The notes under the pieces were generated by a model. It did no database searches. It was not told the DNA's origin and saw nothing but the letters and a program-made list of their open reading frames with translations. 64,000 bases of DNA, taken from Hasllibacter halocynthiae. Lineage in GTDB: Bacteria > Pseudomonadota > Alphaproteobacteria > Rhodobacterales > Rhodobacteraceae. The first letter of the stretch is position 1. Every line of letters begins with the position of its first letter. Below, one piece after another: positions 34,982 through 49,640 of the stretch. The stretch covers positions 620,001 through 684,000 of the forward strand of contig NZ_PVTT01000001.1 in NCBI RefSeq assembly GCF_003003095.1, given 5' to 3'. Made by a program: the position numbers and the translations under genes.

Positions 34982-36495
34982 CGGTTGCCACCCTCGCCGA
35001 AGCGGTGCGCGTCCGCCGCCGCCGCGCGCAGGGCGTTCGACTTGGCGACGGTCTCCTGCCACTCGGCCTCGGGGTCGCTGTCGTGGACGACGCCGCCGCC
35101 CGCCTGGACGTAGAGCTTGCCGTCCTTCAGCACGCCCGTGCGCAGTGCGATGCAGAAGTCCATGTCGCCGCCCGCCGAGAAGTAGCCGACGCCGCCGCCG
35201 TAGACGCCGCGCTTCTCGGGCTCGAGCTCGTCGATGATCTCCATCGCGCGGACCTTCGGCGCGCCGGAGACGGTGCCCGCGGGCAGGCCGGCGAGGAGGG
35301 CGGAGAGCGCGTCCTCATCCCCCCGCAGCTCGCCGACGACGTTCGAGACGATGTGCATGACGTGGGAGTAGCGCTCGACCGTGAACTCCTCCGTCGGGCG
35401 GACGGTGCCGATGCGCGCCACCCGGCCGACGTCGTTGCGCCCGAGGTCGAGGAGCATCAGGTGCTCGGCCAGCTCCTTCTCGTCGGCGAGGAGTTCGGCC
35501 TCGAGCGCGGCGTCCTCCTCCGGGGTGGCGCCGCGGGGGCGGGTGCCGGCGATGGGGCGGATCGTGACCTCGCCCCCCATGACGCGCACGAGGATCTCGG
35601 GCGAGGCGCCGACGATCTGGAAGCGGTCCCCCTCGGCCGCGCGCATGTCGAAGTGGAACATGAAGGGCGAGGGGTTCGTGCGGCGAAGCGAGCGGTAGAG
35701 GGCGAAGGGGGGCAGGGGGAAGTCCTGCGTCCAGCGCTGCGCGGGGACGACCTGGAAGATGTCCCCGGCGGCGATGTACTCCTTCGCGCGCCGCACGGCG
35801 TCGAGGTAGCCGTCCTTGGTGAAGTTCGACACGGGCTCGGCCACGGGGCCGGGATCGGTCAGTTCGCGCGGGGCGGGGACCGGGCGCTCGAGGTCGCGCA
35901 CGGCGTCCATCAGGCGCTCGGCCGCCTGGGCGTAGGCGGCGCGGGCGGAGAGGCCGGAGGCGGCCCAGGCGGGGGCGCAGAGGATCGCGTCGCCCTTCAC
36001 CCCGTCGAGCACGGCGACCACCGAAGGACGCATCAGCATCGCGTCGGGCAGGCCGATCGGGTCGGGGTTCACGTCGGGCAGACGCTCGACCAGGCGGATC
36101 ATGTCGTAGCCGAGATGCCCGAAGAGGCCGGCGGAGGCGGCGGGCAGGCCGTCCGGGATCGCAATGCGAGATTCTGCCAGCAACGCGCGGAGCGAGGCGA
36201 GCGGGTCTGCTGGGTCGTCCTGCCAGCCATCGGGGTCGTGGCGGGCGGCGCGGTTGATGCGCACGGCGCCGCCGCGGCACTGCCAGATCAGGTCGGGGCG
36301 CAGGCCGATGATCGAGTAGCGCCCCCGTACCTCGCCGCCGGTGACGGATTCGAGGAGGCACGACCCCTCCGCGGCGCGCGCGAGCTTGAGGAAGAGGGAG
36401 ACGGGCGTGTCGAGATCGGCCGCGATGCGGATCCACAGAAGCTGGTTCTCGCCCCGGTCGAACCCTTCGGCGAAGGCGTCGAAGGTCGGGTGCAT
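34978..36495 (-). CDS. trpE: anthranilate synthase component I
   Basis: Chorismate-using subunit that makes anthranilate with TrpG. The protein of 505 residues starts MHPTFDAFAEGFDRGENQLL. The feedback-site motif LLESVTGGEVRGRYSIIG is near residue 45, and the catalytic domain shows RPIAGTRPRGATPEEDAALE, LLMLDLGRNDVGRVA-type sequence (as EHLMLLDLGRNDVG) and GVYGGGVGYFSAGGDMDFCI. The ATG overlaps the stop of the ppiD-like gene (ATGA), which leaves no room for a trp attenuator directly in front. Confidence 0.97.
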   Translation of the reverse strand: MHPTFDAFAEGFDRGENQLLWIRIAADLDTPVSLFLKLARAAEGSCLLESVTGGEVRGRYSIIGLRPDLIWQCRGGAVRINRAARHDPDGWQDDPADPLASLRALLAESRIAIPDGLPAASAGLFGHLGYDMIRLVERLPDVNPDPIGLPDAMLMRPSVVAVLDGVKGDAILCAPAWAASGLSARAAYAQAAERLMDAVRDLERPVPAPRELTDPGPVAEPVSNFTKDGYLDAVRRAKEYIAAGDIFQVVPAQRWTQDFPLPPFALYRSLRRTNPSPFMFHFDMRAAEGDRFQIVGASPEILVRVMGGEVTIRPIAGTRPRGATPEEDAALEAELLADEKELAEHLMLLDLGRNDVGRVARIGTVRPTEEFTVERYSHVMHIVSNVVGELRGDEDALSALLAGLPAGTVSGAPKVRAMEIIDELEPEKRGVYGGGVGYFSAGGDMDFCIALRTGVLKDGKLYVQAGGGVVHDSDPEAEWQETVAKSNALRAAAADAHRFGEGGNR

Positions 36496-38339
36496 CAGTT
36501 GCCGTACTGCGCGGCGATCGCGTTCAGCATCGCCTGGTCCACGGTCACGTCCATCCGGGCCTGCAGGGCGCGGGCATAAGCGGCGAACACGTCGCCGGGA
36601 TAGCCGCGCGGGTTCTCGGCGACGAGGGCGGCGCGCAGCTCCCGCGTGGCGGGATCGTCGGGGTCGGCCGGCGTGACTTGGTCGACGTGGACGAGGGCGG
36701 CGGCGCCGGGAAGGCGGACGGTCGCGGTCCCGCCCTCCGGGGTCTCGAAGATTGCGCGGGCCAGCGCGGGCGGCGCGCCGTCGAGCCCCGCGACGCGGAC
36801 GAGCGCGTCCTCCTCGATCGTATCGAGCGGGGCCTCGCCCGCGGCGAAGTCGTCCCGCAGCGCTTCGGCCAGGGCCATGAGGGCGTCGGTCTCGGCCTCG
36901 CGGCGCCAGGTGGCGAGAACCTCCCCGCGGACCTCGTCCAGGGCGGGCGCGCGGGCCTCGCGCATCCCGTCGAGGCGCAGGGCGAAGAGGCCGCCGTCGT
37001 CGGTGCGGACCGCTTCGGGGAAGTCGTCCTCGGTCGCCGCGCGGGCCGCCTCGCGGAAGGTGTCGTAGCCGAGGAGCGGGTCGTCGCCGTCGGGGCCGGC
37101 GAAGAGGGTGCCGGAGACGGCCGGCCCGATCTCGGCGGCGACGTCCTCGACCGTGGCGCCGCCGGCGAGGAGGTCGTCGACCTCGTCCTCGAGGTCGTCG
37201 ATGACGCGGCGCGCACCCGCGAGACCCAGCTCGAGCGTCAGCTCCTCGCGCACGTCCTCGAACGGGATCTCGACCGCGTTGAGGAGGGCGTTGACGCGGA
37301 AGATGGCGGGCCCGTCCTCGGTCGGGACCACGCGGGTCAGGCCGGGCTCGGTACGGGCGAAGACGGCCTCCGCGGCGCCGCCCAGCCCCTCGAAGGTCAC
37401 GTCGCCGAGGTCGACGTCCTCCGGGGCGAGGCCGGCGGCCGCAACCTCGGCGTCGAAGTCCGAGGCGCCGGTGGCGATGCGGCCCAGCACGGCGCGGGCG
37501 GCGGCCTCGTCCGCGAAGACGAGGCGTTCGACCAGGCGCCGCTCGGGACGCCGGAACTCCTCCGCGCGCTCGTCGTAGAGGGCGCGGAGCCGGGCCTCGT
37601 CGATCTCGGCGTCGGCGGCGACCGCCTCGGGCGCGATCCAGAGATAGGCGATCCGGGGTGCGGCGGGGATGGTGAAGGCCTCGGCGTTGGCCTCGTACCA
37701 CTCGGCCAGCTCGGCCTCGGTGGGGTCGGCGATCGGCGCGGGCAGGAGGTCGGGCCGCAGGATGGCGTAGCGGACGTCCCGCCCCTCGAGGAGGAAGGCG
37801 GTCATGATGTCGAGATAGCCCCGCGGCGCCTCGACCCCGCCGATCACGGCCTGCTCGAGCTGGGCGCGGGCCAGCTGGCGGCGCAGACGCTCCTCGTAGG
37901 CGCTCTCGCTTTCGCGGCGGGATTCCAGGAACTCGCGGTAGATGCTCCGGTCGAAGGAGAGCAGCGGGCGGAAGCGCGGGTCGTCGGTGATGGCGCGGGC
38001 GACCCGCTCGTCCCCGGCGGAGAGGCCGAGGCGCAGGGCCTCGGCGTCGAGGGCGGCATCGGTCACGAGGCTGCCCAGCGCGATGGACTGCACCTGCGCG
38101 AAGGGCAGGGGGCGGCCCTGGCGGGCGGCGTTGCGGCGGATGGCGTCGGCGGTCAGCAGAAGGTCGTCGGCGTCGATGACCTGCCCCTCGACGGTCGCCA
38201 CGCGCTGACCGCCGCCCCCGAACGATCCGGCGCCGAAGCCCGCGAGGCCGACGAGGAGGAGGCCGCCGATCACCCAGGTGGCGACCTTCGAGACCGTGCC
38301 GCCCCGCTTCGCGCCGGGCGCGATCTTCTCCTTGGCCAT
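36495..38339 (-). CDS. PpiD/SurA-type periplasmic folding factor
   Basis: Inner-membrane-anchored, periplasm-facing peptidyl-prolyl isomerase-like protein (614 residues). After the basic MAKEKIAPGAKRGGTVSKVA comes one transmembrane helix (WVIGGLLLVGLAGFGAG), then a SurA-N-like chaperone domain (VATVEGQVIDADDLLLTADA onward) and a central degenerate parvulin domain around 240-360. The rest is acidic and helical. The usual parvulin core residues are poorly conserved, so chaperone rather than isomerase activity is likely. The stop overlaps the trpE start, a coupling common in this order. Confidence 0.88.
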   Translation of the reverse strand: MAKEKIAPGAKRGGTVSKVATWVIGGLLLVGLAGFGAGSFGGGGQRVATVEGQVIDADDLLLTADAIRRNAARQGRPLPFAQVQSIALGSLVTDAALDAEALRLGLSAGDERVARAITDDPRFRPLLSFDRSIYREFLESRRESESAYEERLRRQLARAQLEQAVIGGVEAPRGYLDIMTAFLLEGRDVRYAILRPDLLPAPIADPTEAELAEWYEANAEAFTIPAAPRIAYLWIAPEAVAADAEIDEARLRALYDERAEEFRRPERRLVERLVFADEAAARAVLGRIATGASDFDAEVAAAGLAPEDVDLGDVTFEGLGGAAEAVFARTEPGLTRVVPTEDGPAIFRVNALLNAVEIPFEDVREELTLELGLAGARRVIDDLEDEVDDLLAGGATVEDVAAEIGPAVSGTLFAGPDGDDPLLGYDTFREAARAATEDDFPEAVRTDDGGLFALRLDGMREARAPALDEVRGEVLATWRREAETDALMALAEALRDDFAAGEAPLDTIEEDALVRVAGLDGAPPALARAIFETPEGGTATVRLPGAAALVHVDQVTPADPDDPATRELRAALVAENPRGYPGDVFAAYARALQARMDVTVDQAMLNAIAAQYGN

Positions 38340-38377
38340 CCGGCGCTCCCCCCTCGGGTTCCTGTCCCGGGGGCGGG

Positions 38378-39562
38378 TTAGCCGCGCGGGGAAAGGCCTT
38401 CAAGGTCGCCCGCCAGCCGCTCCGCCAGCAGGGCGATGCCGGGGCGGTCGAGATTGGCGAAGGCGATCCGGACGGTGCGGTCGCCGGCGGGGTCCCCCCC
38501 GGGGTGGAACATCGCGCCCGGAAGGGCGAGGACGCCGCGCTGCCGCACGAGGGCGCGGGCGACGGCCGCGGAAGGCGCGTCCCAGGGATGGCCGGCATAG
38601 GCGAAGTAGGCCCCGGCGGAGAGGGCGCGCCAGCCGGGAAGCGAGCCGAGCGCCGAGAGGACGGCGTCGCGGCGGGCGAGGACCTCCGCCCGTTCGCCGG
38701 CGAGCCACGCGCCGAGGTTCTCCATCCCCCAGAGGGCGGCGCGCTGGCCGATCCCGTTCGGGCAGATGGTCACCGTGTCGAGCACCTTCTCCGCCTGGGC
38801 GAGGAAGGCGGCGTCCGCGACCATCGCGCCGACCCGGTGCCCCGTCAGCCGGTACGCCTTCGAGAAGGAGTAGAGCTGCACGAGCGTGCCGCGCCAGTCC
38901 CGCGCGAGGAGGTCATGGGGCGCGCCGCCGGCCGAGTGGAAGTCGCGGTAGGTCTCGTCGAGGATCAGCGCGATGCCGCGGGCGCGGCAGAGGTCGAGGA
39001 AGGCGGCGAGGATCTCGGCCGGATACTCGCGCCCCGTGGGGTTGTTCGGGGTGACGAGCGCGATGGCGCGGGTGCGCGGGCCGATCAGCCGCGCGGCGGC
39101 GTCCGGGTCGGGGATCAGCGCCTCGCCCGTGGGCAGGGGAACGGCGCGCAGCCCCTGCTGCGAGAGCCACATCGCGTGGTTGAAGTACCATGGCACCGGC
39201 AGGATCACCTCGTCGCCGGGCGCGGCGAGGATGGAGACGGCGGTGGCGAAGGCTTGGTTGCAGCCGGAGGTGACGGCAACATCGGCCGCGGCGACGGACG
39301 CGCCGTAGGCGGCGGTCCATTCCGCCGCGAGGCGGGCGCGCAAGGCGGGCAGGCCGAGAACGGGGCCGTAGAGGTGGGCGTCCGCCTCCTCCAGCGCGAC
39401 GCGGGCGATCTCGCGGCGCAGGGGTTCGGGCGGGGGCTCCGCTGGGGCGGCCTGGGAGACGTCGATGACCCGAAGGCCGGCGGGCGCGTCGTCCAGCCAT
39501 CGCCGCGCCTCCGTCACGGGCGGCGGCGGGGTGGCCAGGAGGTGGGGGTTCAGCCCGCTCAG
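38378..39562 (-). CDS. class I/II aminotransferase, apparent CTG start
   Basis: PLP-dependent aminotransferase of about 394 residues. Features: [16 protein letters not shown] near residue 105, [16 protein letters not shown], the aspartate in [10 protein letters not shown], the Schiff-base lysine in [16 protein letters not shown] and a C-terminal [10 protein letters not shown]. The substrate is unassigned. The N-terminus implied by homology, [21 protein letters not shown], is preceded by no ATG, GTG or TTG; a CTG overlapping the gpt stop (CTGA) fits both length and coupling. The alternative is a GTG 14 codons later (VTEARRWL), which would drop the conserved NPHL segment. Confidence 0.85.
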
Positions 39563-40068
39563 GCGTCGGTCCCCCGGTAGGGCGGGGCGTATTGTAGGGC
39601 CATGTCCCAGGGAAAGAAGATCCAGGTGTCCTGGGAGACGGTCGTCACGTAGTCGTCCGTCTGCTTGGCGCCCTCGGGCTTGGCGTAGATGCAGGCGAAA
39701 TGGGCCTTGGGGTAGAGCTTGCGCACCAGCTCGAGCGTGCGGCCCGTATCGACGAGGTCGTCGACGACCAGGATGCCCGTGCCGTCGCCCATCATCGCGT
39801 CGTCCGGCTTCTTCAGGACCTCGGCCTCGTGCTGGTCCTGATGGGCGTAGGACTTGACGGAGATCGTGTCCACGGTGCGGACGTCCAGCTCGCGCGCGAC
39901 GATCATGGCGGGGGCCATGCCGCCGCGGGTGATGGCGACGATGGCCTTCCAGGCGCCGTCCTCGCCCGGCCCCTTGTGGTCCAGCCGCCAGGCCAGCGCG
40001 CGGCTGTCGCGGTGGATCTGGTCCCAGGAGACGTGGAAGCCCTTTTCGTGCGGCAGGCGGTCGTTCAT
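39559..40068 (-). CDS. gpt: xanthine-guanine phosphoribosyltransferase
   Basis: Purine-salvage enzyme converting xanthine or guanine with PRPP to the nucleotide (169 residues). The PRPP loop is [18 protein letters not shown], and [19 protein letters not shown] provides the N-terminal loop. The C-terminus [20 protein letters not shown] resembles E. coli Gpt. The start is 27 bp from the LysE-family gene on the same strand; the stop overlaps the putative aminotransferase start. Confidence 0.93.
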
Positions 40069-40095
40069 CGGGTCTCCCTCTCGTTTGGCGGGGCT

Positions 40096-40710
40096 TTAGG
40101 TCGCGGCGACGCCGATTCCCAGGGCGGCGAGTGCGCCGCCGAAGAGGCGGTCGGCCCCCGTCTTGATCCGGGCGTAGCCCGCGCGGGCCCGCGGCAGCGA
40201 GAAGACCCGCGCGACGACGAGGTACCACGCCGCCTCGACCCAGAGGATGTTGAAGAGGACGATCCCCTTGTCCGCGGGCGTGGCCGCGGCCGGTACGAGG
40301 CCGACGAAGACCGCGCCAAAGAAGATCGCGGGCTTGGGGTTCGCGAGCATGGAGAGGGTGCCCAGGCGCAGGGCGGACCATGCCCCGCGGGGGGCGGCGC
40401 CGGGCGTGACCCGGGGCATCGGCTCGGGCGCGCGGCGCCAGAGGTTCCAGGCGATCCAGACGAGGAAGAGGCCGCCCGCGACCTTCAGCCCGGTGAAGAG
40501 GGGCGGCGCTACCTCGAAGAGGAGCGCGAGGCCGAGGAGCGCCGCCGCCGCCCAGACCGTCGCCCCGATCCCGAAGCCGAGCGCGAGGTAGGCGGCGGTG
40601 CGGAACCCGTCCGCCGCCGCCGTGCGGACCGACAGAACGAAGGAGGGGCCCGGCGAGATCGCCGCGAGAAGGTGCGCCAGCGCGACGCCGAGGAAGGCGG
40701 CGGGGCTCAC
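40096..40710 (-). CDS. LysE/RhtB-family amino acid exporter
   Basis: Membrane protein of 204 residues with about six helices. The N-terminal LAAISPGPSFVLSVRTAAADG is the conserved LysE/RhtB signature (PGP motif), and LSMLANPKPAIFFGAVFVG matches the central NPK motif. The GTG start overlaps the fabI stop (GTGA), making it coupled to fabI. The substrate, an amino acid or derivative, cannot be inferred. Confidence 0.9.
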   Translation of the reverse strand: MSPAAFLGVALAHLLAAISPGPSFVLSVRTAAADGFRTAAYLALGFGIGATVWAAAALLGLALLFEVAPPLFTGLKVAGGLFLVWIAWNLWRRAPEPMPRVTPGAAPRGAWSALRLGTLSMLANPKPAIFFGAVFVGLVPAAATPADKGIVLFNILWVEAAWYLVVARVFSLPRARAGYARIKTGADRLFGGALAALGIGVAAT

Positions 40711-41537
40711 CCCTCGCGCCTCTCGAGCGTCATGTCGGGGGCCTCGGGGTTCTTCATGCCGACGACGTGATAGCCCGCGTCGACGTGGATCACCTCGCCC
40801 GTGACGGCGCTGCCGAGGTCCGACAGCAGGTAGAGGGCGGACTTGCCGACCTCCTCCTGGGTGACGGTGCGGCGGAGGGGGGCGTTGTTCTCGTTCCATT
40901 TCAGGATGTAGCGGAAGTCGCCGATGCCCGAGGCGGCGAGCGTCTTGATCGTGCCGGCCGAGATCGCGTTGCAGCGGATGCCGTCCCGGCCGAGGTCCTC
41001 GGCGATGTAGCGCACCGATGCCTCGAGCGCGGCCTTGGCAACGCCCATCACGTTGTAGTGCGGCATGACCTTCTCGGAGCCGTAGTAGGTCAGCGTCAGG
41101 AGCGAGCCCCCGTCGGTCATCAGCGGCGCGGCGCGCTGGCAGATGGCGGTGAAGGAGTAGACGGAGATGTCCATGGTCGAGCGGAAGTTCGCCGCGCTCG
41201 TCTCGACGTAGCGGCCGCGCAGCTCGCTCTTGTCGGAGAAGCCGATGGCGTGGACCACGAAGTCGAGGCCGCCCCACTGGTCCTTCAGTTCGGCGAAGAG
41301 CGCGTCGAGCGATGCCCCGTCGCCCACGTCGCATTCGTGCGTGGTGGCGCCGACCGATTCCGCGAGCGGCCTGACCCGCTTCTCCAGCGGGCCGCCCTGA
41401 TGCGAGATGGCGAGCCGCGCCCCCTGGGCGTGGAGGGCCTGGGCGATGCCCCAGGCGATCGACTTGTCGTTGGCGAGGCCCATGATGAGCCCGCGCTTGC
41501 CTTCCATCAGTCCCGCCACTGGCGTCTCCCGCCCCAT
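40707..41537 (-). CDS. fabI: enoyl-[acyl-carrier-protein] reductase (NADH)
   Basis: Last reduction step of type II fatty acid elongation. SDR fold with GLIMGLANDKSIAWGIAQAL as cofactor loop and the Y-x6-K active site in PHYNVMGVAKAALE, preceded by LTYYGSEKVMP; TIKTLAASGIGDF lies in the substrate loop. Start taken at 41537 (MGRETPVAGLMEGKRG); a start at 41507 (MEGKRG) is also possible and only removes ten residues. The lysE-type gene overlaps its stop. Divergent from pdxH with 62 bp between starts. Confidence 0.95.
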   Translation of the reverse strand: MGRETPVAGLMEGKRGLIMGLANDKSIAWGIAQALHAQGARLAISHQGGPLEKRVRPLAESVGATTHECDVGDGASLDALFAELKDQWGGLDFVVHAIGFSDKSELRGRYVETSAANFRSTMDISVYSFTAICQRAAPLMTDGGSLLTLTYYGSEKVMPHYNVMGVAKAALEASVRYIAEDLGRDGIRCNAISAGTIKTLAASGIGDFRYILKWNENNAPLRRTVTQEEVGKSALYLLSDLGSAVTGEVIHVDAGYHVVGMKNPEAPDMTLERREG

Positions 41538-41599
41538 GTCCTTAGGTCCCGCCCGCATACGCCCCCCGGGGGCGCGGCGGCAAGGACGGGGAATCCGGC

Positions 41600-42214
41600 A
41601 TGGAAGAGCGGACGGGCATTTTCGCGGGGCCGGACCCCGTCGCCATCGCGGCGCGCTGGCTGGAGGAGGCCGGGCCCCTGGAGCCGAACGATCCGAACGC
41701 CATGCAGCTCGCCACCGTGGACGAGGCGGGGATGCCGGACGTGCGGACCGTGCTGCTCAAGGAGATCGAGGAGGATCCGGGCGCGTTCCTCTTCTACACC
41801 AACTACGAAGGCGCGAAGGCCCGGCAGATCGAGGCGGCGGGCGGGCGCTGCGCCTTCGTGATGCACTGGAAGTCGCTGCGCCGGCAGGTGCGGGTGCGGG
41901 GCGTCGCCGCGCGCGAGGACGGGGCGAAGGCCGACGCCTACTATGCCAGCCGTCCGCTGGGCAGCCGGATCGGGGCCTGGGCCTCGCCCCAGTCGCGGCC
42001 CGTGGAAGGGCGGGACGAACTGGCGGCCCTGGTCGAGGCGGCGGACCGCGCGCACGGGGACGATCCGGCGCGTCCGCCGCATTGGGGCGGCTACCGGATC
42101 GCGCCGCAGGAGATCGAGCTGTGGGCCGACGGCGAGAGCCGCCTGCACGACCGGTTCCGCTTCACGCGCCCGGCCGAGGACGCGGGCTGGCGCTGGACGC
42201 GGCTGGGGCCCTAG
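41600..42214 (+). CDS. pdxH: pyridoxamine 5'-phosphate oxidase
   Basis: FMN-dependent oxidation of pyridoxamine- or pyridoxine-phosphate to pyridoxal phosphate (204 residues). Characteristic segments are [48 protein letters not shown] and the C-terminal [24 protein letters not shown], which carries the conserved RLHDR and W-RL-P. It starts a plus-strand run with the DUF192 gene 9 bp behind it. Confidence 0.95.
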
Positions 42215-42223
42215 GGTGTGGGG

Positions 42224-42718
42224 ATGAAACACCTCGTCGTCATCGCCCTGGCCTTCGCCGCCGGGCCGGCCTTCCCGGACTGCGCGGCGGACCGCGTGGA
42301 TCTGCGCGGCCCGTTCGGCACGGCGAGCTTTCGCGTGGACGTCGCCGACGAGCCCGACGAGCGCGCGCAGGGACTGATGTTCGTGGAGGAGCTGCGGCCG
42401 AACGAGGGGATGCTCTTCGTGTTCGAGCGCGCGGGGCCGGTCAGCTTCTGGATGCGGAACACGCTGATCCCGCTGGACATGCTGTTCGCCGGCGAGGACG
42501 GCGTGGTGCGGCGCGTCCACGAGAACGCCGTGCCGCTCGACGAGACGGGCATCCCGGGCGGCGACGACATCCGCTACGTTCTGGAGATTCCCGGCGGCGT
42601 CTCCGCCATGCTGGGCGTCGCCGAAGGGGCGCAGATGCGGCACCCCGCCATCGCGGAGCCCGCGTGGCCCTGCGGCGAGGTCGAGGACGAGGTTGAGGAC
42701 GCCGCCCCGCGGGAGTAG
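42224..42718 (+). CDS. secreted DUF192 protein
   Basis: Protein of 164 residues with signal peptide [20 protein letters not shown] and one DUF192 domain. Diagnostic residues are [20 protein letters not shown] and [14 protein letters not shown]. The end, [14 protein letters not shown], is acidic. DUF192 proteins are widespread envelope proteins without a settled function. The ATG at 42224 behind GGGTGTGGGG is preferred over a GTG two codons earlier. It ends 11 bp before tRNA-Pro. Confidence 0.85.
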
Positions 42719-48545: not shown

Positions 48546-49640
48546 TTGGCCGAGGCCGCCCCCGAAAGCGCCCGCCTGACCGCGCGCGGCCTCGTCCGCC
48601 GCCTGGGCGGGCGGGCCGTGGTGGACGGCATCGACCTGTCCCTGCGCGCGGGGCAGGTGACATGCCTTCTGGGCCCGTCGGGATGCGGCAAGTCGACGAC
48701 GCTGCGCCTTCTGGCCGGGGTGGACGCGCCCGACGCGGGCACGATCCGCATCGACGGGGCGGTGGTCGCGAACGGCGCCGCCGCGGTCCCGCCGGAGCGG
48801 CGGGGCGTCGGCCTGATGTTCCAGGACTTCGCCCTCTTCCCCCACCTGACCGTCGAGCGGAACGTCGCCTTCGGCCTATCGGGGCCGGACGCGCGCGAGC
48901 GGGCGCGCGCCATGCTGGCCCGCGTGGGGCTGGAGCGGCACGCGGACGCCTACCCCTCGACCCTCTCGGGGGGCGAGCAGCAGCGCGTCGCCCTCGTCCG
49001 CGCCATGGCCCCGAAGCCCTCCGTCATGCTGATGGACGAGCCCTTCTCGGGCCTCGACAACCGCCTGCGCGACGGCATCCGGGACGAGACGCTGGACATC
49101 CTGAAGGCGGAAGGGACCGCCGTCCTCCTCGTCACGCACGAGCCGGAGGAGGCGATGCGCATGGCCGACGAGATCGTGCTGATGCGCGACGGACGGATCG
49201 TGCAGCAGGGCACGCCCTACTCGATCTGGCATCAGCCGGCGGACCGCGAGGCGGCGGCGTTCTTCTCGGACCTGAACGTGATCCGCGGGCGGTCGAACGG
49301 GGCGCTGACCGACACGCCCTTCGGCGCCTTCCTGACCCCAGGCCATCCCCCCGGGGCGGAAGTCGACATCGTGTTCCGCCCGGTCCACGTCTCGATCGAC
49401 TTCGACCGGGCGGGGCAGGGGCCGAACCCCACGCCGCAGCTCGGCACGCCCGTCCGGGGGATCGTGCGGCGGGCGCGGTTCATGGGGTCCGAATCCCTCG
49501 TCGAGTTCGAGACCGAGGCCGCGGGCATGCTCCAGGCGGTCGTGCCGGCGGTGTTCCTTCCCCGGCCGGGGATGGCGCTGTGGCTGTCCGTTCCGCGCGG
49601 CCGCTGCCACGTCTTCGGGGCGGGGCGCGTCGCGGCCTGA
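48546..49640 (+). CDS. ABC transporter ATPase, FbpC/PotA-like, TTG start
   Basis: ATPase of 364 residues with Walker A LLGPSGCGKSTTLR near residue 37, Q-loop in GLMFQDFALFPHLTV, signature TLSGGEQQRVAL and Walker B VMLMDEPFSGLDNRLRDGIRD, plus the switch histidine in LLVTHEPEEAMRMADEI. The C-terminal about 110 residues (DIVFRPVHVSID; RGIVRRARFMGSESLVEFE) are a TOBE regulatory domain as in iron(III), polyamine and sulfate importers. The start is TTG after AAAGGA; no permease or binding protein adjoins it. It could work with remote partners. Confidence 0.9.
   Translation: MAEAAPESARLTARGLVRRLGGRAVVDGIDLSLRAGQVTCLLGPSGCGKSTTLRLLAGVDAPDAGTIRIDGAVVANGAAAVPPERRGVGLMFQDFALFPHLTVERNVAFGLSGPDARERARAMLARVGLERHADAYPSTLSGGEQQRVALVRAMAPKPSVMLMDEPFSGLDNRLRDGIRDETLDILKAEGTAVLLVTHEPEEAMRMADEIVLMRDGRIVQQGTPYSIWHQPADREAAAFFSDLNVIRGRSNGALTDTPFGAFLTPGHPPGAEVDIVFRPVHVSIDFDRAGQGPNPTPQLGTPVRGIVRRARFMGSESLVEFETEAAGMLQAVVPAVFLPRPGMALWLSVPRGRCHVFGAGRVAA

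Follow-up and report, generated by a model that had tools for sequence, protein, structure and literature searches.

A possible CTG start codon overlapping the gpt stop codon in a PRK07550-type aminotransferase gene of Hasllibacter halocynthiae

The window analyzed in this study, a stretch of 64,000 nucleotides of the Hasllibacter halocynthiae genome (contig NZ_PVTT01000001.1, positions 620,001 to 684,000), contained a group of minus-strand genes encoding a LysE-type translocator, a xanthine phosphoribosyltransferase (gpt), and a PLP-dependent aminotransferase, followed by a further gene downstream (Table 1). The gpt product matched its NCBIfam profile with 236.9 bits (cut-off 138), and the start of the translocator gene was a GTG overlapping the stop codon of the preceding gene (GTGA). 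No family was found at gathering score in an Rfam scan of 38000-42500, and a search of 38300-41700 for sigma-70-like promoters found none. Additionally, four terminator-like sites were identified in 38300-41700 against 0.9 expected. One of them, a weak minus-strand hairpin of five pairs within the 3' end of gpt (39634-39622), would, if real, mean less read-through into the aminotransferase gene. Codons of the aminotransferase gene are numbered with the proposed CTG start as codon 2.

Table 1. Features at the gpt-aminotransferase junction, in positions of the window.
Feature	Position	Strand	Remarks
LysE-type translocator	40096..40710	-	Pfam PF01810; upstream, same strand
gpt, xanthine phosphoribosyltransferase	39559..40068	-	Stop TGA 39559-39561; NCBIfam NF006613, Pfam PF00156
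GGGGGA, Shine-Dalgarno-like	39570..39575	-	Within gpt, in Arg-Gly codons near its end; 7-base spacing to CTG
Proposed start codon CTG	39560..39562	-	Overlaps gpt stop as CTGA (39562-39559)
Second in-frame CTG, codon 5	39551..39553	-	Minor rival start
GTG, first canonical in-frame codon (VTEARRW)	39515..39517	-	Codon 17, rival start
Aminotransferase gene, PRK07550 type, class I/II PLP-dependent	38378..39562	-	394 residues if read from CTG
Downstream gene, ATG start	36495..38339	-	ORF and codon model; foldase/peptidyl-prolyl isomerase-like by eye

The aminotransferase matched Pfam PF00155 (E 2.6e-40) and NCBIfam NF005732 (501.2 bits, cut-off 366), with residues 5-385 of the protein aligned to positions 5-385 of the 389 in the latter profile. 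The lysine of the SFSKAYR motif (residue 235), which we take to be the PLP-binding lysine, was invariant in an alignment of 27 sequences, as were the PNNP motif and R365, presumably fold-type I residues. Like the PRK07550 aminotransferases of other Rhodobacteraceae, with which it shares these invariant catalytic residues and 54-67% identity (126 relatives), the gene appears by its sequence to be ordinary and intact and to encode an ordinary predicted enzyme. Unlike it, the relatives start with ATG (rarely GTG or TTG) and usually have a Met at position 18. The residue after V17 (39512-39514) was Thr (ACG) here, versus Met in 117 of the 126 relatives, and the H. halocynthiae gene thus has neither the usual start ATG nor the usual internal ATG.

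The 3' end of gpt reads ...TAC CGG GGG ACC GAC GCC TGA, and the -1 frame across it reads ...CGC CTG AGC GGG CTG AAC CCC CAC CTC CTG GCC ACC. The nearest canonical codons upstream in this frame were a GTG about 220 codons away and an ATG (40381) about 270 codons away, and the first one downstream was the GTG at codon 17, which lies 15 codons inside the gene and 41 bases past the gpt stop. The preliminary description of this locus, which had found no ATG, GTG, or TTG before the homologous N-terminus and had pointed to a CTG overlapping the gpt TGA, is therefore confirmed on both points: the frame has no canonical codon between the GTG about 220 codons upstream and the GTG at codon 17, and the coordinates and minus strand of the CTGA overlap are correct. 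Its remark that such junctions are common in the window also holds, since, of 29 close same-strand junctions in the codon-model calls, 6 showed ATGA, 5 GTGA, 2 TTGA, and 3 CTGA in the downstream frame. Provided that the CTG is the start, it forms with the gpt TGA a co-directional overlap of start and stop (-4, NTGA).

The CTGA string by itself is not evidence for a start, because a C before TGA is common at the G+C content of the window (71%). The other two CTGA junctions had an ATG 14 bases downstream or an ATG overlapping the stop by one base. The gpt product ended in RGTDA here versus RGTD or RGKD in many relatives, and the extra GCC codon (39562-39564) gives the C of the CTGA. The same GCC TGA ending was present in the gpt of relative L056, where an ATG follows immediately (CCTGATG). 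A gpt gene ending in GCC TGA produces the CTGA string automatically; the string may be fortuitous here, with the true start elsewhere. What speaks for the CTG is that no other start is present at a place where 198 of 202 relatives carry one.

These 202 distinct relatives (126 at 54-67% identity and 76 more) were obtained from 80 related loci, genome-search matches, and short sequences around the start from another 80 genomes, after the removal of duplicates. Aligning their start regions, a check that the preliminary description had proposed, placed a canonical codon at query positions -3 to +6 (CTG as position 2) in 198 of them (ATG in 187, GTG in 7, and TTG in 4), and from this we infer that a canonical start was lost in the lineage of H. 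halocynthiae. In 27 of the 202 the ATG coincided with position 2, and a CTG stood at codon 2 in seven, each with an ATG at most two codons off. In the alignment of 27 sequences, the leucine of the CTG fell in the column of the initial M of 10 of the 26 relatives (e.g., MLPLNPALAATF and MAGINPAIAASF). A single substitution in an ATG is not the only possible origin of the CTG; codon 3 may have been the lost start, with the adjacent CTG taken over.

Four relatives fell outside this pattern. L045 had an ATG at +9, L109 an ATG at -12 and a TTG at -6, and L186 ATGs at -18 and +9, while L126 had only the GTG at codon 17 and its 5' end (L126:1480-1545) was full of C runs, which looks like poor sequence rather than biology. 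Among the 203 cases, the window is thus the sole clean-looking one that lacks a canonical start close to the conserved N-terminus. Relatives that share the CTG as a conserved noncanonical start were not found, as 198 of 202 have a canonical one, and the start is best regarded as a plausible CTG initiation in a single genome and not as a conserved device. The gpt and aminotransferase genes are neighbours in many relatives, and a gpt match was present in the compared stretch, which had limited flanks, in 82 of the 126. The gpt stop lay within -30 to +15 bases of the reference point in 28 of these, 31-200 bases upstream in 37, and elsewhere in 17, which suggests that tight coupling may not be family-wide. 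A count of NTGA at the starts of the relatives (92) was set aside, because any ATG followed by A is counted, which leaves the overlap with the gpt stop untouched.

Several controls bear on how these start regions are to be read. Among 61 called genes in the window, five, including the aminotransferase gene, had their nearest canonical codon more than 8 codons from the model start. Of the other four, one ran off the window edge, the OsmC-like and PdxH-like genes had an ATG on inspection, and the AraC-like gene had an ATG 26 codons upstream. Additionally, an ABC transporter ATPase gene (48546-49640) likely starts at the TTG at 48546 after AAAGGA, and the coding model begins 8 codons later. Applied to loci with a matched N-terminus, the same comparison recovered a canonical start in every case for gpt (83 of 83), the fabI-like gene (40 of 40; named by eye), and lysE (21 of 21), counts that include the own locus.

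The gene infC, whose AUU, AUC, or AUA starts are a known noncanonical class, was compared in the same way. Among 30 loci, the own one included, noncanonical starts were recovered as 27 ATA and 2 ATC, with one locus misaligned; since 7 of the 30 also had an ATG or GTG at most 12 codons upstream or at most 7 downstream, these are presumed starts. The infC gene of H. halocynthiae itself had an ATC as its apparent start (AGAGGA...GCC ATC GCC CGC AGA; L141:1459-1461, about position 888679 of the contig). It resembles the aminotransferase gene in having a noncanonical start after a Shine-Dalgarno-like site in the same genome, but it belongs to a conserved class, and its codon differs from ATG at the third base, whereas CTG differs at the first.

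A mundane explanation of the CTG is an error of sequencing or of the consensus, or else a mutation restricted to this strain, with the population carrying ATG, GTG, or TTG. The genus Hasllibacter is represented in the comparison by a single assembly, so that a base error keeps some share of the probability, and the 5' end of L126 shows that poor-looking stretches do occur among the relatives. However, the assembly consists of 4 contigs and is 99.7% complete and 0.06% contaminated, the surrounding frames are intact, and a lone substitution precisely at the start codon would be unlikely a priori. We regard this explanation as quite unlikely.

The segment between the CTG and the GTG had the properties of coding sequence. 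Residues 5-16 scored 37.8 against the 66 NP-type relatives among the 126, whose own scores averaged 41.2 (25.9-48.2). Shuffles of these residues averaged -3.0 with a maximum of 28.8, none of 1000 reaching 37.8, and other 12-residue stretches of the protein reached 16.5 at most with the same scoring. T12, P15, and P16 were kept in 121, 121, and 125 of the 126 relatives, respectively. Third positions were G or C in 15 of 15 of codons 2-16, 9 of 16 of the preceding 16 codons, and 372 of 395 codons gene-wide. A codon model that allowed any codon as a start placed the coding start at 39562; it was trained on five neighbouring genes that included this one with its CTG start, a mild circularity that makes the result supportive only. 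The observations on this segment argue that it has been translated through most of the history of the lineage, which is also compatible with a very recent loss of the start.

The GGGGGA upstream of the CTG had a pairing energy of -8.4 kcal/mol, a stronger pairing than in 111 of the 116 relatives with ATG, versus -3.0 at the CTG of codon 5 and -1.5 kcal/mol at the GTG of codon 17, all computed against an assumed E. coli-type 16S tail. The proposed start is accordingly a near-cognate codon with a well-spaced Shine-Dalgarno sequence (GGGGGA, 7-base spacing). By the codon usage of the window, in whose genes CGG and GGG make up 33% and 30% of their codons, the CGG GGG pair is expected in about 1 in 10 cases, and it was present in 3 of 84 gpt tails, own included. 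We also considered that the strong Shine-Dalgarno sequence was selected to compensate for the CTG, but this was unsupported, since codon usage alone could account for it and two relatives carry the pair. L106 has an identical CGG GGG tail and an ordinary ATG start.

Translation could also begin at the GTG of codon 17, in which case the 15 N-terminal residues were lost when the old start mutated and the old codons are a fading relic. This GTG is the sole canonical codon near the N-terminus, and a GTG stands at its place as an internal codon in 146 of the 202 relatives. In an AlphaFold2 model of the aminotransferase (mean pLDDT 93.3), the first two ten-residue blocks had pLDDT values of 80 and 84 and the second helix began at residue 15, right next to the GTG; the predicted fold might tolerate removal of the first 15 residues. 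On the other hand, the discarded residues fit the family as those of the relatives do, including the kept T12, P15, and P16, the Shine-Dalgarno sequence of the GTG is weak, and the codon is well separated from the gpt stop. Moreover, in the FIB rep gene discussed below, the analogous downstream GTG is described as a wrong annotation (PMC11983097). A start at the GTG is improbable in our estimation.

Initiation at the second CTG or at another near-cognate codon nearby is in frame, and the starts of the relatives do range from -3 to +6, but the weaker Shine-Dalgarno pairing of this CTG and its lack of contact with the gpt stop make it very improbable. A -1 frameshift on the GGGGG at the gpt end, giving a Gpt-aminotransferase fusion that needs no start codon, is the least credible alternative: the aminotransferase does lie in the -1 frame, which is open through the gpt end, and GGGGG does precede the stop, but no proper X XXY YYZ heptamer was seen by eye, in the relatives the two genes are separate, each with a start of its own and often with a spacer between them, L106 combines the same tail with its ordinary ATG, and predicted RNA folding at the junction was weaker than in shuffles (z +1.59).

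We therefore favor, with a probability of roughly 0.6, the explanation that the aminotransferase gene lost its canonical start in its lineage and is now read from the CTG overlapping the gpt stop, by a restart after the UGA; both the initiation and the reinitiation are proposals drawn from the sequence. The start at the overlapping CTG, as first put forward in the preliminary description, is backed by the alignment, the Shine-Dalgarno position, the codon statistics, and the conservation of the N-terminus. A ribosome translating gpt would stop at the UGA, while the GGGGGA in the gpt tail would keep the 3' end of the 16S rRNA positioned seven bases upstream of the CUG. This codon lies one base back and could then be taken either by that ribosome or by a fresh 30S subunit that loads at the accessible site. 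The initiator fMet-tRNA would pair with the CUG despite the first-position mismatch, translation would restart in the -1 frame, and the Met of the product would probably be removed before Ser. Initiation at CUG would presumably give a lower yield than ATG and be subject to IF3 repression, and the yield is expected to be low unless coupling helps, as the preliminary description suggested it may.

CTG starts in bacteria are already known, and the present gene would be another case, close in form to the rep gene of FIB (E. coli F-like plasmids), for which a CTG start was proven by N-terminal analysis and function was lost on changing CTG to CTC (PMC11983097). Both have a CTG with a good ribosome-binding site and a first canonical GTG inside the gene, 14 codons in for FIB rep (PMC11983097) and 15 here, and most annotations of FIB rep are reported to place the start wrongly at that GTG. 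In contrast to the present gene, the start of FIB rep is proven, its low expression suits replication control, and no overlap with an upstream stop is described in the accessible part of that report (PMC11983097). Other CTG starts named in the literature are those of ano of E. coli and rpsL of Deinococcus deserti (PMC5960689). Such starts are reported to be rare and inefficient: among nearly 85,000 genes, only 20 carry an annotated CTG start, and initiation from CTG in E. coli is about 10-fold below that from TTG (as reported in PMC11983097), CUG initiation complexes are less stable (PMC11497404), and in vitro IF3 accepts nothing but Watson-Crick pairing at the first and second bases of the codon (PMC10158994). 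In mycobacteria, ATT is enriched at leadered starts and CTG is not (PMC4633059), and in Caulobacter a CUG upstream of dnaA is bound by 30S in vitro yet unused in vivo (PMC8443254). The sigR gene of Streptomyces has an IF3-repressed GTC start, with GTC in 32 of 34 species (PMC5472188). It is like the aminotransferase gene in having an intact N-terminus and a good ribosome-binding site without an ATG, GTG, or TTG, but its codon is conserved and its initiation and IF3 repression have been shown (PMC5472188), whereas the CTG here is private to one genome and proposed from the sequence.

Generally relaxed initiation in this organism was also considered, with light testing, and rejected. The infC gene was present and scored above its family cut-off, and the inspected window genes with distant canonical codons (OsmC-like and PdxH-like) start at ATG. 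The initiator tRNA (L142:1471-1547) had an A29-U41 pair where the first of three G-C pairs would be expected in the anticodon stem, and the GGG-CCC form of the initiator tRNA was absent from the genome. T was present at position 41 in every listed match, from 44 of 61 genomes with the own one included (the other 17 had no match; base 29 was seen in the own genome only), and the variant is probably not special to H. halocynthiae.

Translational coupling has been documented for gene pairs with -4 overlaps (PMC6728339, PMC12548453, PMC10666635), and the coupled NTGA pairs of these papers resemble the gpt-aminotransferase junction in the -4 spacing, the shared strand, and a Shine-Dalgarno sequence in the upstream gene. 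A term search of the accessible text was negative for CTG in PMC6728339 and for CUG in both PMC12548453 and PMC10666635, and the accessible parts of the open-licence papers surveyed described no bacterial gene with a CTG start that is coupled through CTGA. As a speculative extension, which we hold to be possible but on the unlikely side, termination at the overlapping UGA may deliver ribosomes to the CUG and bypass much of the discrimination by IF3. The overlap would then relax selection on the first base of the start codon, and high-G+C genomes may hold a class of CTGA-coupled genes truncated by annotation to the next GTG or ATG.

If the CTG start is true, the aminotransferase gene would be another that callers restricted to ATG, GTG, and TTG place 15 codons late, as with FIB rep (PMC11983097). 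It would also provide a natural test case of whether termination-reinitiation tolerates start codons that are rejected by de novo initiation.
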